Source: a virus. From it: a stretch of DNA of 31,047 bases. Both the position numbers and the translations under genes were made by a program. This document shows, one piece after another, positions 18,952 through 30,986 of the stretch. Under the pieces are notes generated by a model that made no database searches, was not told the DNA's origin, and saw only the letters and a list, made by a program, of their open reading frames with translations. Positions within the stretch are counted from its first letter, which is position 1, and each line of letters starts with the position of its first letter. The DNA lies in the IMG/VR virus record IMGVR_UViG_3300047383_000125, positions 1 through 31,047 of that record, one strand, 5' to 3'.

Positions 18952-19590
18952 ATGATACCAGTAGCAGCAGCAATGGGCGCCGTAAAGGGCTTAACCGGAA
19001 TAGCGGGTGGTATTATAGGTAGTGGAAAAAGAAAAAGAGAAGAAGCAGCGGCTCAAGAAGAGTACGATATGTTCAAAACTCAATACCAAGAACTTGACAC
19101 ATCTAACCTATACGCTAACTTAGAAAATACTATGGAAGACTTAACTGTCGACCAAAGAGCAGCGGAGTTCCAGTTGCAAGCGCAGCAACAGGGGCAAGCT
19201 AATATTATGGATCAGATGTCCGGAGCAGCTGGTGGGTCTGGTATAGCCGCGTTGGCGCAAGCGATGGCTAACCAACAAACGCAAGGAGCGGCACAAGCAG
19301 CGGCAAGTATAGGGCAGCAAGAAAGATCTAACCAAATGGCTAAGGCACAAATGGCGGGGCAATTACAATCTCAAGAAGCGCAAGGAGCTGAACAAGCAAG
19401 ATCATTAGAATATAGTAAAACTAGCACACAACTTGGAATGGCACAACAAAGATTAGGTGCCGCTAAACAAGCAAGAGCAGCCGCTACTCAATCTATTATG
19501 GGCGGTGTTGGTGGTTTGCTCGGAGCTGGTGTAGAAGCTGGAGCGGCCGGAGCTTTTGGAGAAGGAGTCGCGGGAATCTTAGGCGGATAA
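18952..19590 (+). CDS. Putative internal virion / DNA-ejection protein (T7 gp14 position)
   Basis: A 212-aa protein rich in Ala, Gln and Gly. Hydrophobic Gly/Ala segments sit at both ends (residues 1-25, VAAAMGAVKGLTGIAGGIIG; and about 182-212, MGGVGGLLGAGVEAGAAGAF). Between them is a long amphipathic Gln/Ala helix (residues 30-180). This composition is typical of small ejection proteins such as T7 gp14 or P22 gp7, which enter or cross the host membrane at infection. It is first in a run of three core-like genes of increasing size. The start follows AACAATAAAATT. Confidence 0.65.
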   Translation: MIPVAAAMGAVKGLTGIAGGIIGSGKRKREEAAAQEEYDMFKTQYQELDTSNLYANLENTMEDLTVDQRAAEFQLQAQQQGQANIMDQMSGAAGGSGIAALAQAMANQQTQGAAQAAASIGQQERSNQMAKAQMAGQLQSQEAQGAEQARSLEYSKTSTQLGMAQQRLGAAKQARAAATQSIMGGVGGLLGAGVEAGAAGAFGEGVAGILGG

Positions 19591-20830: not shown

Positions 20831-23800
20831 ATGTTCAAAATAAAAATAGACGGCGTTGAGTATGAAATTAATGATTCTAACATCGGTGTTTTTCAAAACG
20901 CTTATGGCGATTTAGAACAATACAAAATAGAAGAAAATACTTTTCAACAAGACCCTGCAAGTGCGGAGACAAATGTAGGGTCGAAAAACAATACGGTCTC
21001 CAATTCGGAAAATGGTTTATTGGAATCAAATCAACCACCTGAAAGATATATTAATTATAAACGTAACGGTAAAGACGCTTCAATGTCTGAATCCGAATAT
21101 AATAATTTCTATGCAGACTTAGAGGACAAAGGTAGATACCCTGCGGAATTTGATGTTTATGTTGCAAAAACTTTTCCAAATACTAAAATCCAAACGACAA
21201 ACTTTGACGAGGGCGCGATGCTTGACGAGGTTGTTGTTAAAGCAGAGTTATCAGACGAAGTAAAACAAGCTAAAAAAGACAGCACAGAGCTTACTGCAGT
21301 TATTGAAGCTGAAACACCTGAAGCAAATTATGAAGAGATCGCAGGGGATTATTTTACTGGATTAAACGACGATGGTCAAATAACTGGTATGAATAGACCT
21401 CAATTTTTTCCTACATTAAGAAACTCCGACGGATCGCCCCAAATGTGGCAAGGTAAGGAAAGAAAAAGTGGATTTTCAGAATATAAAAATGATTATGATA
21501 CTGATTTAAAAAACCATTTAGGCCCTGTAAAATACAAACAGTATATAACCGCCAAAGAATTAGCTGAAGCAAACGGTGAAAATCTTACAAAAGAAAACGT
21601 AAACCAGTATATTAGTTTAGAATTAATTCAAGATAACAAAAACGACAAGACTATAGACTCTGTTGTAGCTAGTAAAAGAAGTAAGGCTGCTGAAAATTAC
21701 ACAAGAGACATAGGCGGATTTTATGTTACTGATGAAGAACAAAAAAGACAGGATTTATTAGAGCAATTTACTGGAACTGATGAAGTTGTTACAAAGAAAA
21801 ATACTGCTTTATTAAATGAAAAAGAAAGAGCGCTTAGAGATGCTAGAGATTTTGAAGCTAAATTCGGAAGGCCATTAGTTAGAACTGAAAAACTTCAGGG
21901 TAGAACATATACCCCATTTAACAGAGAGCTTACCCTTAATAAAGTACAAGAGGGAGAAGAAAAAAGAATAGCAAAAGAAGCGGGTGAGATTGAAAGTGCA
22001 GTAAAAATATTTGATACTCAAGCAACAGAGTTAAATAATGTACAGGATGAAATTAGAAACTACAATGTAGAACAAGATAATTTTAACAATCCTGAGGAGG
22101 TTGCTTTTAGAGATAGCTTATTTGATCGCCAAAGGGTATTAATGAACGAATTACAAGCTGATCAATTAATACTTCAAGCCCGAGCTGATAAACTTACCAA
22201 TGATTTAAATGTGTATAGCACGACAAATGTGGCTGACGCCGCTTTAGTTAAGTCTTACCAAACATCGGATTTGCTAGCGAACACATGGGAAAGCGCTTTT
22301 TTAGGTTCAGCAGCCCAATTAGGGGGTGCTATAATTTCTCCTTTTGATGGTGGTATAACTTATGAAGCTGCAACTAATTATAATCAAAGACTGCAAAGTG
22401 AGGCTCAAAAATATTTACCACAAGCTTTAACAAGCGATGATGACTCAAGTGCAGCGCAGTATTTTGGGGACATGCTCATCAGGAACTCCCCTTCAATAGC
22501 TGTGGCTGCTGCAACAATGGGTGCAGGTGCGGGGCTAACCGGCGCTGCTAGGCTTGCCGCTATAAGACAAGCATCCAATGCTTCAATGGGTATATTCTTT
22601 ACTATGGAAGCTGGTGGGCAGTTATCTAATTTAGAGATTCAGCAAAGAGAAGCGCCAAAAATGATCGCTGCTTTAAATAAACAAATAGAAGAAGCAAAAG
22701 CTAACGGTACACCCCTAAACGAAATAAATAAATTAGAGGCAGATAAAGAATATCAAGAAAACATATTAAGCTTAAACGCTTTTCAAAAAGGGTTTAACAG
22801 TACAATTTATGGTGGAACTGCCGCTTTAGCTGAAAGACTAGGATCTTTAGGTTTTGTTAAAAACTTTCAAAAATATTCAAGAGCCATAGGCGGTAACACG
22901 TTAAGAAAACAATTCGGTGAAACCTTAGGCACTAATATAAGTAAAGGCTTAGGTAACGTTACTGCTGTTGGGGCTATAGGCCCAGGTATAGAATTTATTG
23001 AAGAAGGTGCGACATTAATTGCGCAAAATTTAAGTGATAACTTAATTTTTCAACCGGAAAATCCTAAAAGTTTAATTGATGGTTTAGATGGCGAATTTTT
23101 TAGAAATACGTATGTAACATCTTTAGCTATTGGTGGAGCGGGTGCAAGCCAAAACGTTATGACTGCATTAAACAATGAAGTTAAAACTAGAAAGCAAGCT
23201 AGACAAGAAAATGAAATACGCGATAAATTAATAGATGTATCAAATAAGCTAAACACATTAGACGGCAGAACAAAGGAAGCTAGAAATTTAAAACAAGAAA
23301 GAGACAATCTAATAAGTGATGCTGCAGATTTAAATACAGCAATACCTTTAAATTTAAAAGGTCTTACTGGCAGTGAAATAAATAGAGTCTTTGAGAATGC
23401 TGCAAGCATTAGAAAATTAAAATACCAAGCTTCCCAATTAGATTTAGCTAGTTTTGATGCAAGAGATCGTAGAGAATTCGAGCGATTAAAAAATGCGTCT
23501 CAAGTTTTATATAATGAAAGCCAATCAATATTAGGTAGATCAGAAGCTGAAATAGAAAAGTTAGCAAAAAACACACCAAACCCACTTGTCACGGAGGTTA
23601 ACTTTCGCAGGTTTAACATGTTTAAAGAAATCGCTAAAGAAACTAAAGGTGTTAATGTCATAGATATAAATAACGAGGAGCAGTTTAACGCTTACTTAAA
23701 AGAAAACAAACTTGATGGCAAAAAATATAGCTATACGGCTATGAACGAAGGTAATAACAGCGCAGCTCAGGTTAACAATGATATATTAATTTTTAATGAA

Positions 23801-26800
23801 ATCGCCGCAAGAAATATGCAACAACCGGGTATTGACGGTGAGGTTGCTTCGGCTTCTCCTTTGCATGAGTTGGGCCACTGGCAAGTTAAACAGCAGGGTA
23901 TAATAAAAGACAACAAAATTGTTAGCGCTTCTAACGATATGGTTAGTAGTATTATAAATGATGTTAGGTCTAGGTTTAATAAAGGAAGCATATCTAAAGA
24001 AGCTTTTGATAATTTTAATGCTAGAATTGCCCTATACAAAGATGTAGATGTTAAAGGAATAGACGCTGACGAGTTATTGCAATTAGTTTCAGACTTTACA
24101 GCAATAGGCGTTTTGCCTAAAAGTAGTTTTGGTAATATATATGGGGCAAAAACATTTGTAAACAGTATACTTAAAAAAGTAAATGGCGACTATTCTCATT
24201 TCTTTAAAATTAATTCACCGAGCGATGTGTATGCGTTTGTTGCTAACTGGCAAAATAGAGCATTAGTATACCAATTACCTGAAGGGGAAGAAAAAGAGGG
24301 TGATAAAATTAAATCATCAAAGGCTGTAGAGAAGGTAAGACAAAGACTTGAATCAATACCATTAGAACAATTACCCTCACGCGCCAGTCAAAACATTATA
24401 GCTAATGAATTATTTGGCATGGTAGATGCACAAATACGTAATAGACTTAATTTAGATCCAAACGTAAGAGAAGAGCTACAAGCTGACGTAATTGCAAGAG
24501 TATATGAAGCACAAGAAAATACTAAATGGGACGGTAGGGGCAGCTTATATGGCTTTATAAACGGCCGTATCGCTAAGCGTATACTAGATGCTTTAAGAGC
24601 AAATCCAGATTATCTTGATGTTGTAACAAAACAAGAGCTTACTGGTTTAGAAAAAGCTTCTGAAGTTGTAGTCGATGATGTACAAACAGCAAAAAAAGAA
24701 AAGCCTAAATTTAGAAACTTATTACAAAGCAAAGTATTACCCGCTGACGCTTTAGAATCAGTACAAAAAAAATTGCTTAGTACAATAAGAGTGCTAAAAT
24801 CAAAACTAGGCGCCGACATTTCTATAAACAAAACAGTTACTCCTTTGGTAGCTGAGATTAAAAAAGAAATGGGTAAGCAGGCTGATATTGAATTTAAGAA
24901 AAGGTTAGGCTCAAAGAAAGATGGCATACTAAGAAAAAATTATCTTAGATTTAAAAAACCTATATTAGAAAACATGACAACCACTTGGTTGATGGGCGCT
25001 ATGCCATTTGCTGTTCAAAAACAAGTTAATGGTAAGTTTACATCTGACTGGCAGGGCAAAAAGATTGACAGAGAAACGGTTGATACAGATAAAGCGGGTA
25101 GAACATCAGGCGCTGATATAGTTAGAAGATTACCTAATATTGCAGATAAAGTTACTGACGAGCAATTTTTGTCTTACATGTTTAAAGACGGAGCTGTTAT
25201 TCGTGGTCGTAAAGAATCTTTATCGAAGGCATTAGCCGAAGAGCTTGCGTTTGATTTATTTAATAGTGAATTACAAAAGCCAGACAGTGAATTAAGAAAA
25301 GCATTTGTAAATAATCAAGCAGCATTAGGCGCTGAACTTGCAGATAACTTTGTTCAAGAAGTACAAAAAGATACAGAACGAGGTAATATAAAATTTAGTA
25401 AAGGATTAGCTACATTAACACCTGCAGAAAATGAAACTTTTAGAGATGGATTGCCAAAACTAAAAGAACTTATAGTAGGCATGGACAATGATTTTGGTAA
25501 AACGCCAACTGCAATTAAAAAAGTTCTGCAAAACACATATGGCGATAAATTTACTAAAAAACAATATGACGGTATATCTAAGCAATTTTTTAACTTATTA
25601 AAACCGTTAAATAAATCATTCCCTAAAAAGTATGTTAATGTAAGTGAACAAGAACTAACAGATTATGTAGAGCAAGTTGCGCAAGATGTAGATGGCAATG
25701 CTTCTATACAATTATATACAGGTGCTAGCGATTCTATTAAAAATTTATGGAACACAGGCACGAACGTTTATATAGCCCAGGAGGCTATTGAAAATGCGTT
25801 AAGCGAGTTACCTATAGAGACTGTTGTGGCTTTCTTTAGCGGTACTTTTGCTAACTCTGGCAAAGTTGGAATGCGTAACTTTAAAGACGCTAATGAAAGT
25901 TTTAGAGCTGATTTTTACGGAGGTGAGGCTCAATGGCTTCCGGCTTTAAAAAGGATGTTCCCGCAGCTTGAAAGTATACAGAAAAACGGTGACATTGTTT
26001 TAAAAAACGGTAAAGTTATAAAGAAAAAGTTTACAGCAACAGGCAGCGTTACTAAAGGCATGCTTGAAGCAAACTTTAATACAGATAAAGATATTAAAAA
26101 TGCAACAGCTGCTTGGGAATTTACTACAGCTGTCGTTAGGGGTATTAAAAATGAAAACCCCGACATACAAGCTATGGTTTTAGCGGCAATGAATAGCGGA
26201 ACTAATACAGCTTTAAGAGTAGCTGCTCCTGTATTATATAGAACAGCGGGTTTTAATTCATTAGATAAAGATGATTATAGATACGAGCATGCTTTACCTG
26301 CTAGACGGGTTCTTTTTGACATGTACAAGTCTATCGTGAAGGATGATAAGTCTATAAGCCTACAAGCGCTTAAAAACGATTATAAGGTCGCACTAATACC
26401 TAAGACAATGGATAAGGTTATTGGTGATCAAGGTTTAGGACCTATAGCAGTTGCAGGTTATGTTGCTGGGCAAACGCCATGGTACAGTCGCTATTATAAT
26501 ATACTAACGAGAGGAAAAGTACAATATGCTTTGGAATCTTTAGAGAATGGAGAAATTATTGGTCAAAATTATGCAGACTATTTTAATTCCACGTCTGATC
26601 CATTAACGGTTAAAACAGACGCGCCAGCTGTAGTAGAAGCGAGTATAGCATATGAAAACGCTTTCAAGCTTTCAAAAGGCTTAAACTACGGTATAAATCC
26701 TAAAGGTATAACTGTGTTAGACTTTGACGATACCGTGGCGATATCTAAAAGCATGGTAATAGTTAAAATGCCAGTTCAAGACAAAGAGATATTGGACATA

Positions 26801-29587
26801 GCTGCTAGAAGAAAATTTAATAGCACTGTATTTAAAGACCTTCCTAGCTTTAAAAGATCATTTGATAATCTTTCAGAAGAACAAAAGCAAGAAGTTTTAA
26901 AAGAAGTTCCTGGCCCAACTAAAAAAATTACACCAGCTGAGTTTGCAGCTGAATCGGTTAACTTAGAAAACCAAGGTGCTACCTTTGACTTTAGCGAGTT
27001 TAACAAAGTGGTTAAAGGCAGAAAAGGTCCATTGTTTGATTTAGCATTAAAAAGACAGGAAAAGTTTGGTAATGACAATATATTTATACTTACCGCAAGG
27101 CCGCAGGAATCAGCTTTAGCGATACAAAAATTTGCTAAAGGTTTAGGTTTAGATTTAAAGCTAGAGAATATAACAGGGCTCGCAGACGGAAGGCCAGAAG
27201 CAAAAGCCGAGTGGATGGTTGGGAAAGTTAACGAAGGATTTAATGATTTTTATTTTGCAGACGATCATTTTAAAAATGTTAAAGCAGTACAAGACACTTT
27301 AAGTTTATTTGATGTAAAATCTGATGTTCAACAAGCTAAAATTAAATTTAGCAAAGGTCTAAATAAAAGTCTTAATAAAATGATTGAGCGCAACAAAAAT
27401 GTAAAAGCCGAGGCTAATTACTCAAAAGCGGTTGCGCGAAGAAAAGGAGCTAATAAAGGTAGATTTAAATTCTTTTTACCATATGGAGCAGAAGACTTTA
27501 GAGGTTTAACATCTTATGTTTTAGCCGGCAAAGGAAAGCAAGGAGATGCAGATCAAAAGTTTTTTGAAGATAATTTAGTTAATCCTTATGTAACAGGTGT
27601 AGCAGCAATGGAAAGAGCCAAGAGAGCATTAAAAAATGATTACGCGGCACTTAGAAAAATGTTCCCCACAGTTAGAAAAAAATTAGGTAAGAAAGTGCCA
27701 GGATTAGAATATACTTATGACCAAGCTATAAGAATTTATTTGTATAATAAATCCGGGTTTGAAGTGTCTGGTTTATCTAAGCGTGATTTAAAAGCTATAA
27801 ACAAATTTGTCGAAGGTGATGCTGATGTAAAAGCTTTTGCCGATGGATTACAATTAATAACTAAAAAAGACGAATGGGTTAAGCCTAATGAGTATTGGGA
27901 TGTGAGTAGCATATTACAAGATATAAACGAAATATCCGAAAAAGTTAGCAGAAAAGAATATCTTGCTGAGTTTATTGAAAATGTTGACGCTGTATTTGAC
28001 GAGGCTATGCTAAATAAACTTGAAGCGGTATATGGGACTGGTTACGTTGAAGCTTTAAATAATATTATAAGCAGAATGAAGTCTGGTGTAAACCGACCTA
28101 GCCAGCCTGGTAAATACGAAAGACAATGGTTAAACTGGGTTAACAATTCTGTTGGTACTATAATGTTTTTTAACAGAAGATCCGCTGTGTTACAGATGTT
28201 ATCATTTGCTAACTTTGTAAACTGGAGCGACAACAATCCGTTAAAAGCGGGCATTGCTTTTGCTAATCAGCCGGCTTATTGGGAGGCATGGTCTAAAATA
28301 TTCAATTCAGATAAACTAAAAGAAAGACGTGGAGGTTTAAAGTCCGACGTGCAAGAACAGGAAATTGCGAATCAAGCTAGGAATAGTAAAAACAAAGCAG
28401 GTGCTATAGTTTCTTATTTATTGAAAATAGGTTTTACCCCTACACAAATAGCAGATAGTATGGCTATTGCGACCGGAGGTGCTACGTTTTTAATAAACAG
28501 GACTAAAACATATACAAAACAAGGCATGTCAAAAGCGGATGCCGAAGCTGCAGCGTTCGAAGATTTTAGTAAAATATCAGATGAGACACAGCAGTCAGGT
28601 GACCCTATGTTAATATCCGCTCAGCAGTCCAGCCATTTAGGGCGCCTTGTATTGGCTTTCCAAAATACGCCGATGCAATACACTAGATTAATGAAAAAAG
28701 CCGGCCAGGATCTTATAAACGGCCGTGGCGACTTTAAAACTAATGTTAGTAAGATTGCTTATTATGGTTTTATACAAAACTTAATATTTAACTCATTGCA
28801 ACAAGCTTTATTCGCTATGATACCCGGTTTTAGTGATGAAGAAGATGAAGAAGATGTTGATAAAAAGCTAGATAAAAAAGAGTTAAAAATACTGAATGGA
28901 ATGCTTGATTCTATATTGCGAGGCTCTGGTTTGTATGGTGCAATAGCATCTACGATTAAAAACGCATACATGCGCTACGAAAAAGAAGAAGAGAGAGGGT
29001 TTACCGCTGATCATACTTATACATTGTTGGAGCTTGCAAACATATCGCCACCTATAGGTTCTAAGCTTAGAAAAGTGTATGGGGCAATACAAACAAATAA
29101 ATTTGACAGGGGTATTATAGAAAAAAGAGGTTTAGAAGTTTTAGACAAGCAAGGTAACTTAAATTTAAGCCCATCATATCAAATAATAGGCGGTCTATCT
29201 TCAGCATTTCTTAACCTACCATTAGACAGGGTTGTATCTGAAATTAATGCTTTAGCGGAGGCGGTTGATGATAGAAACACTGCATATCAAAGAATAGCTT
29301 TGTCCTTAGGCTGGAGGACATGGGATGTTAGCGCTAAGAATGAATATCACGATTTTCTTAAACTAGCTATACAGGAAGAGAAAAAAGATGCTTCAAAGAA
29401 AAAAAGAGAATATAATAAACTTGTTGCAACGCAAAAGAAGTTTGATAAACTAGCTGCGATGACTCCTGATGAAAAACGAGAGTACTTATTAAAAGAAAAA
29501 GCAAAGCGATCTGCTGCAGCAAAAAAAGCAGCGGCTACAAGAAAGCGAAACAAAAGAGTAAGAGATTCAATACTAAGATCAAATTAA
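20831..29587 (+). CDS. Giant multidomain internal/ejected virion protein (T7 gp16 position)
   Basis: A single 2918-aa ORF without interruption. Modules, with rough residues: 1-140, small beta N-terminus ending MLDEVVVKA; 540-790, Gly/Ala-rich amphipathic or membrane-active segments (SIAVAAATMGAGAGLTGAAR); about 930-1120, zincin with HELGH at 1012-1016 and E1081 as a candidate third ligand; 1188-1258, sigma-70 region 2-like; 1526-1945, unknown, with YEHALPARRVL near 1818; 1960-2150, HAD phosphatase (D1964-D1966, T2088, K2125, D2144-D2145); 2180-2918, helical C-terminus containing RLVLAFQNTPMQYTRLMKK and a Lys/Ala tail. KFSKGL or a close variant separates modules at 1521, 1946 and 2172. Gene order points to the largest core protein, ejected with the DNA. 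The domain mix resembles the polyvalent proteins of phages and plasmids. No lytic transglycosylase is seen. Confidence 0.8.
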   Translation: MFKIKIDGVEYEINDSNIGVFQNAYGDLEQYKIEENTFQQDPASAETNVGSKNNTVSNSENGLLESNQPPERYINYKRNGKDASMSESEYNNFYADLEDKGRYPAEFDVYVAKTFPNTKIQTTNFDEGAMLDEVVVKAELSDEVKQAKKDSTELTAVIEAETPEANYEEIAGDYFTGLNDDGQITGMNRPQFFPTLRNSDGSPQMWQGKERKSGFSEYKNDYDTDLKNHLGPVKYKQYITAKELAEANGENLTKENVNQYISLELIQDNKNDKTIDSVVASKRSKAAENYTRDIGGFYVTDEEQKRQDLLEQFTGTDEVVTKKNTALLNEKERALRDARDFEAKFGRPLVRTEKLQGRTYTPFNRELTLNKVQEGEEKRIAKEAGEIESAVKIFDTQATELNNVQDEIRNYNVEQDNFNNPEEVAFRDSLFDRQRVLMNELQADQLILQARADKLTNDLNVYSTTNVADAALVKSYQTSDLLANTWESAFLGSAAQLGGAIISPFDGGITYEAATNYNQRLQSEAQKYLPQALTSDDDSSAAQYFGDMLIRNSPSIAVAAATMGAGAGLTGAARLAAIRQASNASMGIFFTMEAGGQLSNLEIQQREAPKMIAALNKQIEEAKANGTPLNEINKLEADKEYQENILSLNAFQKGFNSTIYGGTAALAERLGSLGFVKNFQKYSRAIGGNTLRKQFGETLGTNISKGLGNVTAVGAIGPGIEFIEEGATLIAQNLSDNLIFQPENPKSLIDGLDGEFFRNTYVTSLAIGGAGASQNVMTALNNEVKTRKQARQENEIRDKLIDVSNKLNTLDGRTKEARNLKQERDNLISDAADLNTAIPLNLKGLTGSEINRVFENAASIRKLKYQASQLDLASFDARDRREFERLKNASQVLYNESQSILGRSEAEIEKLAKNTPNPLVTEVNFRRFNMFKEIAKETKGVNVIDINNEEQFNAYLKENKLDGKKYSYTAMNEGNNSAAQVNNDILIFNEIAARNMQQPGIDGEVASASPLHELGHWQVKQQGIIKDNKIVSASNDMVSSIINDVRSRFNKGSISKEAFDNFNARIALYKDVDVKGIDADELLQLVSDFTAIGVLPKSSFGNIYGAKTFVNSILKKVNGDYSHFFKINSPSDVYAFVANWQNRALVYQLPEGEEKEGDKIKSSKAVEKVRQRLESIPLEQLPSRASQNIIANELFGMVDAQIRNRLNLDPNVREELQADVIARVYEAQENTKWDGRGSLYGFINGRIAKRILDALRANPDYLDVVTKQELTGLEKASEVVVDDVQTAKKEKPKFRNLLQSKVLPADALESVQKKLLSTIRVLKSKLGADISINKTVTPLVAEIKKEMGKQADIEFKKRLGSKKDGILRKNYLRFKKPILENMTTTWLMGAMPFAVQKQVNGKFTSDWQGKKIDRETVDTDKAGRTSGADIVRRLPNIADKVTDEQFLSYMFKDGAVIRGRKESLSKALAEELAFDLFNSELQKPDSELRKAFVNNQAALGAELADNFVQEVQKDTERGNIKFSKGLATLTPAENETFRDGLPKLKELIVGMDNDFGKTPTAIKKVLQNTYGDKFTKKQYDGISKQFFNLLKPLNKSFPKKYVNVSEQELTDYVEQVAQDVDGNASIQLYTGASDSIKNLWNTGTNVYIAQEAIENALSELPIETVVAFFSGTFANSGKVGMRNFKDANESFRADFYGGEAQWLPALKRMFPQLESIQKNGDIVLKNGKVIKKKFTATGSVTKGMLEANFNTDKDIKNATAAWEFTTAVVRGIKNENPDIQAMVLAAMNSGTNTALRVAAPVLYRTAGFNSLDKDDYRYEHALPARRVLFDMYKSIVKDDKSISLQALKNDYKVALIPKTMDKVIGDQGLGPIAVAGYVAGQTPWYSRYYNILTRGKVQYALESLENGEIIGQNYADYFNSTSDPLTVKTDAPAVVEASIAYENAFKLSKGLNYGINPKGITVLDFDDTVAISKSMVIVKMPVQDKEILDIAARRKFNSTVFKDLPSFKRSFDNLSEEQKQEVLKEVPGPTKKITPAEFAAESVNLENQGATFDFSEFNKVVKGRKGPLFDLALKRQEKFGNDNIFILTARPQESALAIQKFAKGLGLDLKLENITGLADGRPEAKAEWMVGKVNEGFNDFYFADDHFKNVKAVQDTLSLFDVKSDVQQAKIKFSKGLNKSLNKMIERNKNVKAEANYSKAVARRKGANKGRFKFFLPYGAEDFRGLTSYVLAGKGKQGDADQKFFEDNLVNPYVTGVAAMERAKRALKNDYAALRKMFPTVRKKLGKKVPGLEYTYDQAIRIYLYNKSGFEVSGLSKRDLKAINKFVEGDADVKAFADGLQLITKKDEWVKPNEYWDVSSILQDINEISEKVSRKEYLAEFIENVDAVFDEAMLNKLEAVYGTGYVEALNNIISRMKSGVNRPSQPGKYERQWLNWVNNSVGTIMFFNRRSAVLQMLSFANFVNWSDNNPLKAGIAFANQPAYWEAWSKIFNSDKLKERRGGLKSDVQEQEIANQARNSKNKAGAIVSYLLKIGFTPTQIADSMAIATGGATFLINRTKTYTKQGMSKADAEAAAFEDFSKISDETQQSGDPMLISAQQSSHLGRLVLAFQNTPMQYTRLMKKAGQDLINGRGDFKTNVSKIAYYGFIQNLIFNSLQQALFAMIPGFSDEEDEEDVDKKLDKKELKILNGMLDSILRGSGLYGAIASTIKNAYMRYEKEEERGFTADHTYTLLELANISPPIGSKLRKVYGAIQTNKFDRGIIEKRGLEVLDKQGNLNLSPSYQIIGGLSSAFLNLPLDRVVSEINALAEAVDDRNTAYQRIALSLGWRTWDVSAKNEYHDFLKLAIQEEKKDASKKKREYNKLVATQKKFDKLAAMTPDEKREYLLKEKAKRSAAAKKAAATRKRNKRVRDSILRSN

Positions 29588-30478: not shown

Positions 30479-30630
30479 GTTTACAAGAACTAAAATTATA
30501 CGCTATAAACGGCAGTACACTTGGCCTCACCACTTTTACACAAATAGAAGATGGTTTAAAAATAATGCTGCTCTTAGTGACTATTGGATATACCATAGCG
30601 AAATGGAAAGACATTAAAAAGAAAAAGTAA
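30475..30630 (+). CDS. 51-aa single-TM protein, holin candidate
   Basis: ATG at 30475 overlaps the previous stop (ATGA), and the TAA at 30628-30630 overlaps the next start (TAATG). This tight coupling supports a real gene. The product has a polar N-terminal half (MSLQELKLYAINGSTLGLTT), one hydrophobic helix (LKIMLLLVTIGYTIA, about 28-42) and a basic tail (KWKDIKKKK). One TM helix with a positively charged end, directly before a cell-wall peptidase gene, is a common layout for small holins. I cannot exclude a membrane anchor or spanin-like protein. Confidence 0.65.
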   Translation: MSLQELKLYAINGSTLGLTTFTQIEDGLKIMLLLVTIGYTIAKWKDIKKKK

Positions 30631-30986
30631 TGATGAAGTATTTTAATTATTCAGAATTTGATAGCCCCGATGTGCAGGGCTCTGGGCAGATGATGGATAG
30701 GGATTTTTTACAAATACTAGATCAAGCGAGAGATCGCTTTGATAAACCTATTAATATAAATTCTGGGTATCGTACGCCGCAGCATAATGATTCTGTTGGT
30801 GGGACCGAGAAGTCTTCTCACCTAAAAGGTTTAGCTGCTGATATTGATTGTCGCAAATCAAAAGATAGATTTGAGCTTATTGATATATTCTTAGACTTAG
30901 GCATAAACAGGATCGGCATTGCAGATACTTTTATCCACATTGATGTCGACCCTGATAAATCACCTAACGTTATTTGGACGTACTAA
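30630..30986 (+). CDS. M15-family Zn peptidase, probable endolysin
   Basis: A 118-aa protein with the complete signature of the M15 (Peptidase_M15_3) D-Ala-D-Ala or L-Ala-D-Glu peptidase group. It reads SGYRTPQHN (residues 45-53) and VGGTEKSSHLKGLAADID, with Zn ligands H64 and D71, then FIHIDVD with H103. The single-domain size fits a small phage endolysin that cleaves peptidoglycan cross-bridges. There is no signal peptide, so access to the wall would need the upstream holin candidate. The start ATG follows an in-frame second ATG (MMKYF); the first is coupled to the upstream stop. A virion-associated wall-piercing role is possible but less likely, given the position next to the holin candidate. 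Confidence 0.88.
   Translation: MMKYFNYSEFDSPDVQGSGQMMDRDFLQILDQARDRFDKPININSGYRTPQHNDSVGGTEKSSHLKGLAADIDCRKSKDRFELIDIFLDLGINRIGIADTFIHIDVDPDKSPNVIWTY

Follow-up and report, generated by a model that had tools for sequence, protein, structure and literature searches.

Can a phage deliver part of a transcription initiation factor inside one of its own virion proteins? The question is raised by a 31,047-nucleotide stretch of DNA from a marine bacterial virus (IMG/VR record IMGVR_UViG_3300047383_000125, positions 1 to 31,047; hereafter the window), which encodes a giant protein in which a segment resembling region 2 of sigma-70 factors had been noticed from the sequence. Phages inject polymerases and polymerase-modifying enzymes. 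If true, an injected sigma-like domain would constitute another route to seize early transcription, and would let one see in a natural setting what sigma region 2 is capable of without region 4.

The structural module of this phage ends with the giant gene. Terminase, portal and capsid/virion structural genes, assigned by PHROGs, lie upstream, and an endolysin gene comes after. The relevant genes of the window are the following:

18952-19590, plus strand: 212-aa protein, a possible ejection partner given its upstream position, with the same order in L005-L009
19601-20815, plus strand: 404-aa protein, a possible ejection partner directly upstream of the giant gene, with the same order in relatives
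20831-29587, plus strand: giant-protein gene, an open frame of 2918 aa encoding a probable virion (ejection) protein
30630-30986: endolysin gene, matching PHROG 894 with E 7e-30, a short way past the giant gene

Neither the 212-aa nor the 404-aa protein matched a PHROG. An identical giant protein is encoded by a 64.9-kb viral record (L003). In cultured flavophages, syntenic positions are occupied by giant genes with a structural annotation, namely gp18 of Flavobacterium elemo, gp101 of Cellulophaga phi38:1 and gp127 of Cellulophaga phi13:2, each the last large gene of a structural module in a phage with a related TerL; none of these three proteins gave a profile match to the window's giant. 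The nearest named TerL proteins are those of an uncultured Manatee Spring podovirus (64%) and of Flavobacterium, Cellulophaga, Tenacibaculum and Maribacter phages, so the flavobacterial host guessed at the outset fits. Judging from synteny, the giant is most likely a virion protein, packaged and ejected so as to enter the host with the DNA.

The segment pointed out in the original prediction (24392-24604) encodes residues 1188-1258 exactly as quoted there. Taken alone, the window sequence is marginal, with Pfam E-values of 0.08-0.16; the 71-aa piece scored 13.2 bits against Pfam Sigma70_r2 (E 0.079), below the 24-bit gathering cut-off. The whole giant protein had no sigma match in Pfam or among PHROGs and no sequence match in the PDB, and PDB profile searches with the early alignments A3 and A5 gave no sigma match. 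A single-sequence search would thus miss the domain, and relatives were therefore gathered.

Scans of viral contigs revealed the domain in about 30 distinct viral records, each time within a giant ORF or a fragment truncated at a contig end. Where complete, the domain-bearing proteins span 2400-3500 aa and hold the domain at the same place. A diverged version was found with a domain HMM in L005, L006 and L009, and the same approach recognized no sigma2-like domain in L007. None was detectable in the syntenic giants of elemo, phi38:1 and phi13:2. With tblastn, no named phage matched the domain or the giant significantly, and a single scan of genome contigs confirmed no relative.

Once relatives were included, the comparisons converged on sigma region 2. 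Of all Pfam families, the domain consensus matched Sigma70_r2 alone (E 0.016). This was also the best family among 29 members, at a best E of 1.3e-4, with scores still short of the curated cut-off; the L041 giant, for instance, reached 17.6 of the 24 bits required. Against a reference alignment of 55 sigma2 sequences from bacterial genomes, the domain profile obtained an hhalign score of 34.8 (P 4.1e-6, which like the other hhalign P-value below refers to one chosen comparison, uncorrected for a search of all families), and 200 column shuffles yielded a mean of 9.7 (SD 2.0, maximum 20.2). The phage's own stand-alone sigma protein, used as a positive control, matched the full sigma2 set with P 3.6e-6. 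After trimming, a 34-member alignment gave 32.9 with the whole sigma2 set and 32.4 with its ECF-type subset (shuffle maximum 19.0), and found no match in profile comparison with the RpoD-type subset; RpoD-type sigma2 was consequently rejected as the closest kind. When the giant was divided into 90 sliding windows, matches to ECF sigma2 were confined to those over residues ~1172-1283, and windows away from this core scored at most 16.3. Likewise, six of the eight top matches of a sigma2 HMM run on 17 giants fell at the domain site (E 1.1e-5 for L060), with no more than 1.3 bits for 102 shuffled or reversed giants. The domain members are not independent since the relatives form one family, and the sigma hypothesis itself originated with the original prediction rather than with these tests.

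Structure prediction points the same way. AlphaFold2 models built with the family alignment (pLDDT 84 for the window domain and 88 for L060) display three main helices in sigma2 order. The L060 model was made because this member is the most sigma-like and was expected to give a clearer structure-search result. By title, 48 of its best 50 PDB matches are sigma factors, counting 9a4r and 9a7s as sigma-H and sigma-D, and its top match is the N-terminal domain of SigE (probability 0.85-1.00). For the window model, which aligns to the same SigE N-terminal structure with TM 0.61-0.70 by target length, only about 14 of the best 50 PDB matches are sigma factors. Foldseek E-values are weak for both models, none falling below 0.001. 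As AlphaFold may lean on sequence similarity, the evidence from the fold is not fully independent of that from the profiles.

The domain and its parts were delineated from the 34-relative alignment, its column counts and the AlphaFold2 model of the window domain:

24374-24634, plus strand: sigma2-like domain, residues 1182-1268, matched to sigma region 2 by profile, HMM and fold
24380-24445, plus strand: predicted helix 1, residues 1184-1205, region 2.1-like
24458-24511, plus strand: predicted helix 2, residues 1210-1227, region 2.2-like
24527-24544, plus strand: WDGRGS loop, residues 1233-1238, equivalent to the loop that precedes region 2.3
24545-24601, plus strand: predicted helix 3, residues 1239-1257, region 2.3/2.4-like

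Along the alignment, an invariant M is followed by an acidic pair with V, R and Y or L, and then by F/W-D-G-R-G-x-L-Y-G-F/Y-I/L-N-G-R...R..D. Helix 2 is acidic at position 1215 in 30 of the 34 relatives and at 1219 in 29; position 1233 of the loop is aromatic in all 34, with DGRG in most; and helix 3 carries the near-invariant LYG[FY][IL]NGR...R..D. The loop and third helix thus hold the most conserved residues, the clamp-facing helix being more variable. Mean column conservation over residues 1201-1250 (0.56) is the peak of the giant's first ~2050 residues. At the region 2.2 position where a Gln of sigma70 contacts the beta' clamp, the window has Ala and only 8 of the 34 relatives have Gln.

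The resemblance to ECF-type sigma region 2 (Sigma70_r2, PF04542; SigE N-terminal domain, 8b3z; E. coli sigmaE, 4lup) extends from the three-helix order to the F/W-D-x-x-G loop, the aromatic residue and the subsequent D in the third helix, with TM values of 0.59-0.70 by target length between 8b3z and the window and L060 models. Unlike ECF sigma factors, the domain sits inside a 2918-aa protein with no region 4 found, scores below the Pfam cut-off and contains an inserted NGR motif that is invariant or nearly so. Sigma70_r4 was absent from the Pfam matches of the 17 giants at E 0.1, in line with the earlier statement that region 4 is unrecognizable; with no detectable region 4, the domain is not a complete sigma factor.

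Could an unrelated three-helix domain merely resemble sigma2 by chance or convergence? The marginal signal of the window sequence, the PDB profile searches with A3 and A5 that returned no sigma match, and the weak Foldseek E-values obtained for such a small helical domain would fit that case. Against this, profile, HMM and fold tests converge on one family, and shuffled, reversed and native-window controls fall well below the observed matches, which makes a fortuitous likeness very unlikely. We therefore consider, from sequence comparisons and predicted models, that residues ~1182-1268 constitute a true domain belonging to the sigma-70 region 2 superfamily (probability of about 0.9), whose similarity is closest to ECF-type rather than primary sigma2. 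The region 2 homology of the original prediction is hence retained, as are the profile match and three-helix sigma2 arrangement it called for, with the correction that the kinship is to ECF-type sigma2.

The domain is embedded among other conserved parts of the giant:

23864-23878, plus strand: HELGH, residues 1012-1016, HExxH of a putative metallopeptidase, near-invariant in 17 giants
24071-24073, plus strand: E1081, a Glu downstream of HExxH and possible third zinc ligand, invariant in 17 giants
24683-25420, plus strand: conserved module, residues 1285-1530, kept also in L007, which has no recognizable sigma2-like domain
26720-27277, plus strand: HAD-like motifs DFDDT, ILTARP and FADD, residues 1964-2149, conserved in relatives

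Profile searches of the PDB gave no match for the HExxH region, which is identified at the motif level, and no significant match for the 1285-1530 module or the HAD-like region. The C-terminal ~690 residues (27353-29410) are the best-conserved region overall, with a mean column identity of 56%, and matched nothing in the PDB and nothing convincingly in Pfam. In alignment A6, Zeta_toxin and AAA families were matched by 3 of the 17 giants (best E 1.6e-14) and polynucleotide-kinase PHROGs by up to 4; none of these domains was found in the window's giant.

Such an architecture recalls the polyvalent proteins of phages and conjugative elements (Iyer et al. 2017, PMC5512222), ejected multidomain proteins for which metallopeptidase processing and jump-starting of transcription have been described. 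Shared features are the giant size, the multidomain organization, the near-invariant HExxH motif and E1081 (at the motif level) and, in some relatives, zeta-toxin or polynucleotide-kinase-like domains. Conversely, the modules we found described do not include a sigma2-like domain; the word "sigma" is absent from the text of PMC5512222. More broadly, the literature searched revealed no ejected phage protein with a sigma domain, and the matches listed concerned, by title, reovirus and other non-phage subjects. The N4-type virion RNA polymerase is a delivered protein that gives early transcription. The giant would resemble it in this respect, and would differ in bringing an initiation-factor-like domain; no polymerase domain was recognized in it by a single-subunit search whose control did not work. 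In 19 related records, many of them fragments, no multisubunit RNA polymerase was matched by a search whose control did work.

The same phage genome also encodes a sigma factor of its own:

L066:11464-12216 (about G001:C1:51463-52215), minus strand: stand-alone 250-aa RpoD-type sigma protein, with region 2 and a weak region 4

Orthologs occur in L068, L069 and L070; Pfam matches to regions 2 and 4 are mostly below cut-off. Region 2 is common to this protein and to the domain of the giant, yet the two have no profile match to each other; because the former is RpoD-type and the latter ECF-type, derivation of the domain from the phage's own sigma gene is unsupported. Directly upstream of the stand-alone sigma gene lies a gene for an HTH-domain protein (HTH_11, E 3.3e-5; L066:12213-12500, minus strand), and similar neighbors are seen in L068 and L069.

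What might the domain do? Known structures of ECF factors have the loop and third helix turned towards the melted -10 DNA. As these are the best-kept parts of the domain, the alignment favors a nucleic-acid-binding role, and clamp binding is uncertain given that the clamp Gln is poorly kept. A mechanism can be sketched in which the giant virion protein, as suggested by synteny, would enter the host along with the phage DNA; the domain, acting within the giant or cut loose by a peptidase as in polyvalent proteins, would, by virtue of its fold, attach to the beta' clamp of the host's RNA polymerase or to melted -10 DNA; and, once bound, the domain would make the polymerase favor phage promoters, or disfavor host promoters, as infection begins. 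Early delivery of a sigma-like domain with the genome would be plausible. The whole mechanism, ejection with the DNA followed by an early bias of host polymerase, stands somewhat short of even odds. The sigma2 matches of sequence and predicted fold, strong domain conservation, structural-gene synteny and the lack of multisubunit polymerase matches in relatives favor it. Weighing against it are the missing region 4, the mostly lost clamp Gln, cultured relatives free of the domain, the phage's own sigma gene, the divergence of the domain in L005, L006 and L009 and its unrecognizable state in L007, and Foldseek E-values not below 0.001. Its more specific form, in which the virion would package a stripped-down ECF-type sigma domain that retargets host RNA polymerase before any phage gene is expressed, appears rather doubtful.

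Some of these observations lend themselves to other explanations. A sigma2-derived module for DNA binding or packing in the ejection apparatus, with no part in transcription, would have retained the fold and its nucleic-acid-facing parts; the peak of conservation in the loop and third helix, against a more variable clamp-facing helix, the missing region 4 and the place of the giant in the structural module would all suit it. Packing alone would not require the acidic positions kept in helix 2, however, and cultured relatives eject their DNA without the domain, so we regard this as unlikely. Alternatively, the ejected domain could be a competitor that occupies the sigma2 site of the polymerase or an ECF anti-sigma factor, shutting down or rewiring host transcription without initiating at phage promoters. 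A region 2 of ECF-type similarity, devoid of region 4, is what such a competitor might look like, and the separate full-length sigma gene could then serve phage promoters; a pure competitor would not need so strongly conserved a DNA-facing loop, and we hold this to be quite unlikely. The ~30 relatives delimit a compact domain, ~85 residues long, suited to direct expression and assay.

Several related records show further peculiarities. In L004 (6704-11617), the giant is split just upstream of the HExxH region into frames of 985 and 651 aa, the second being open at the contig end; this is either a real split or an assembly error. The giant frame of L033 (4974-10404) stops at 1810 aa while the near-identical L032 reaches 2675 aa, which again reflects an interruption or an assembly error. 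Finally, L065 (6175-7728) encodes a phage GroEL-like protein, whose relatives occur on contigs assigned to MAGs of bacteria and archaea, perhaps phage contigs themselves.
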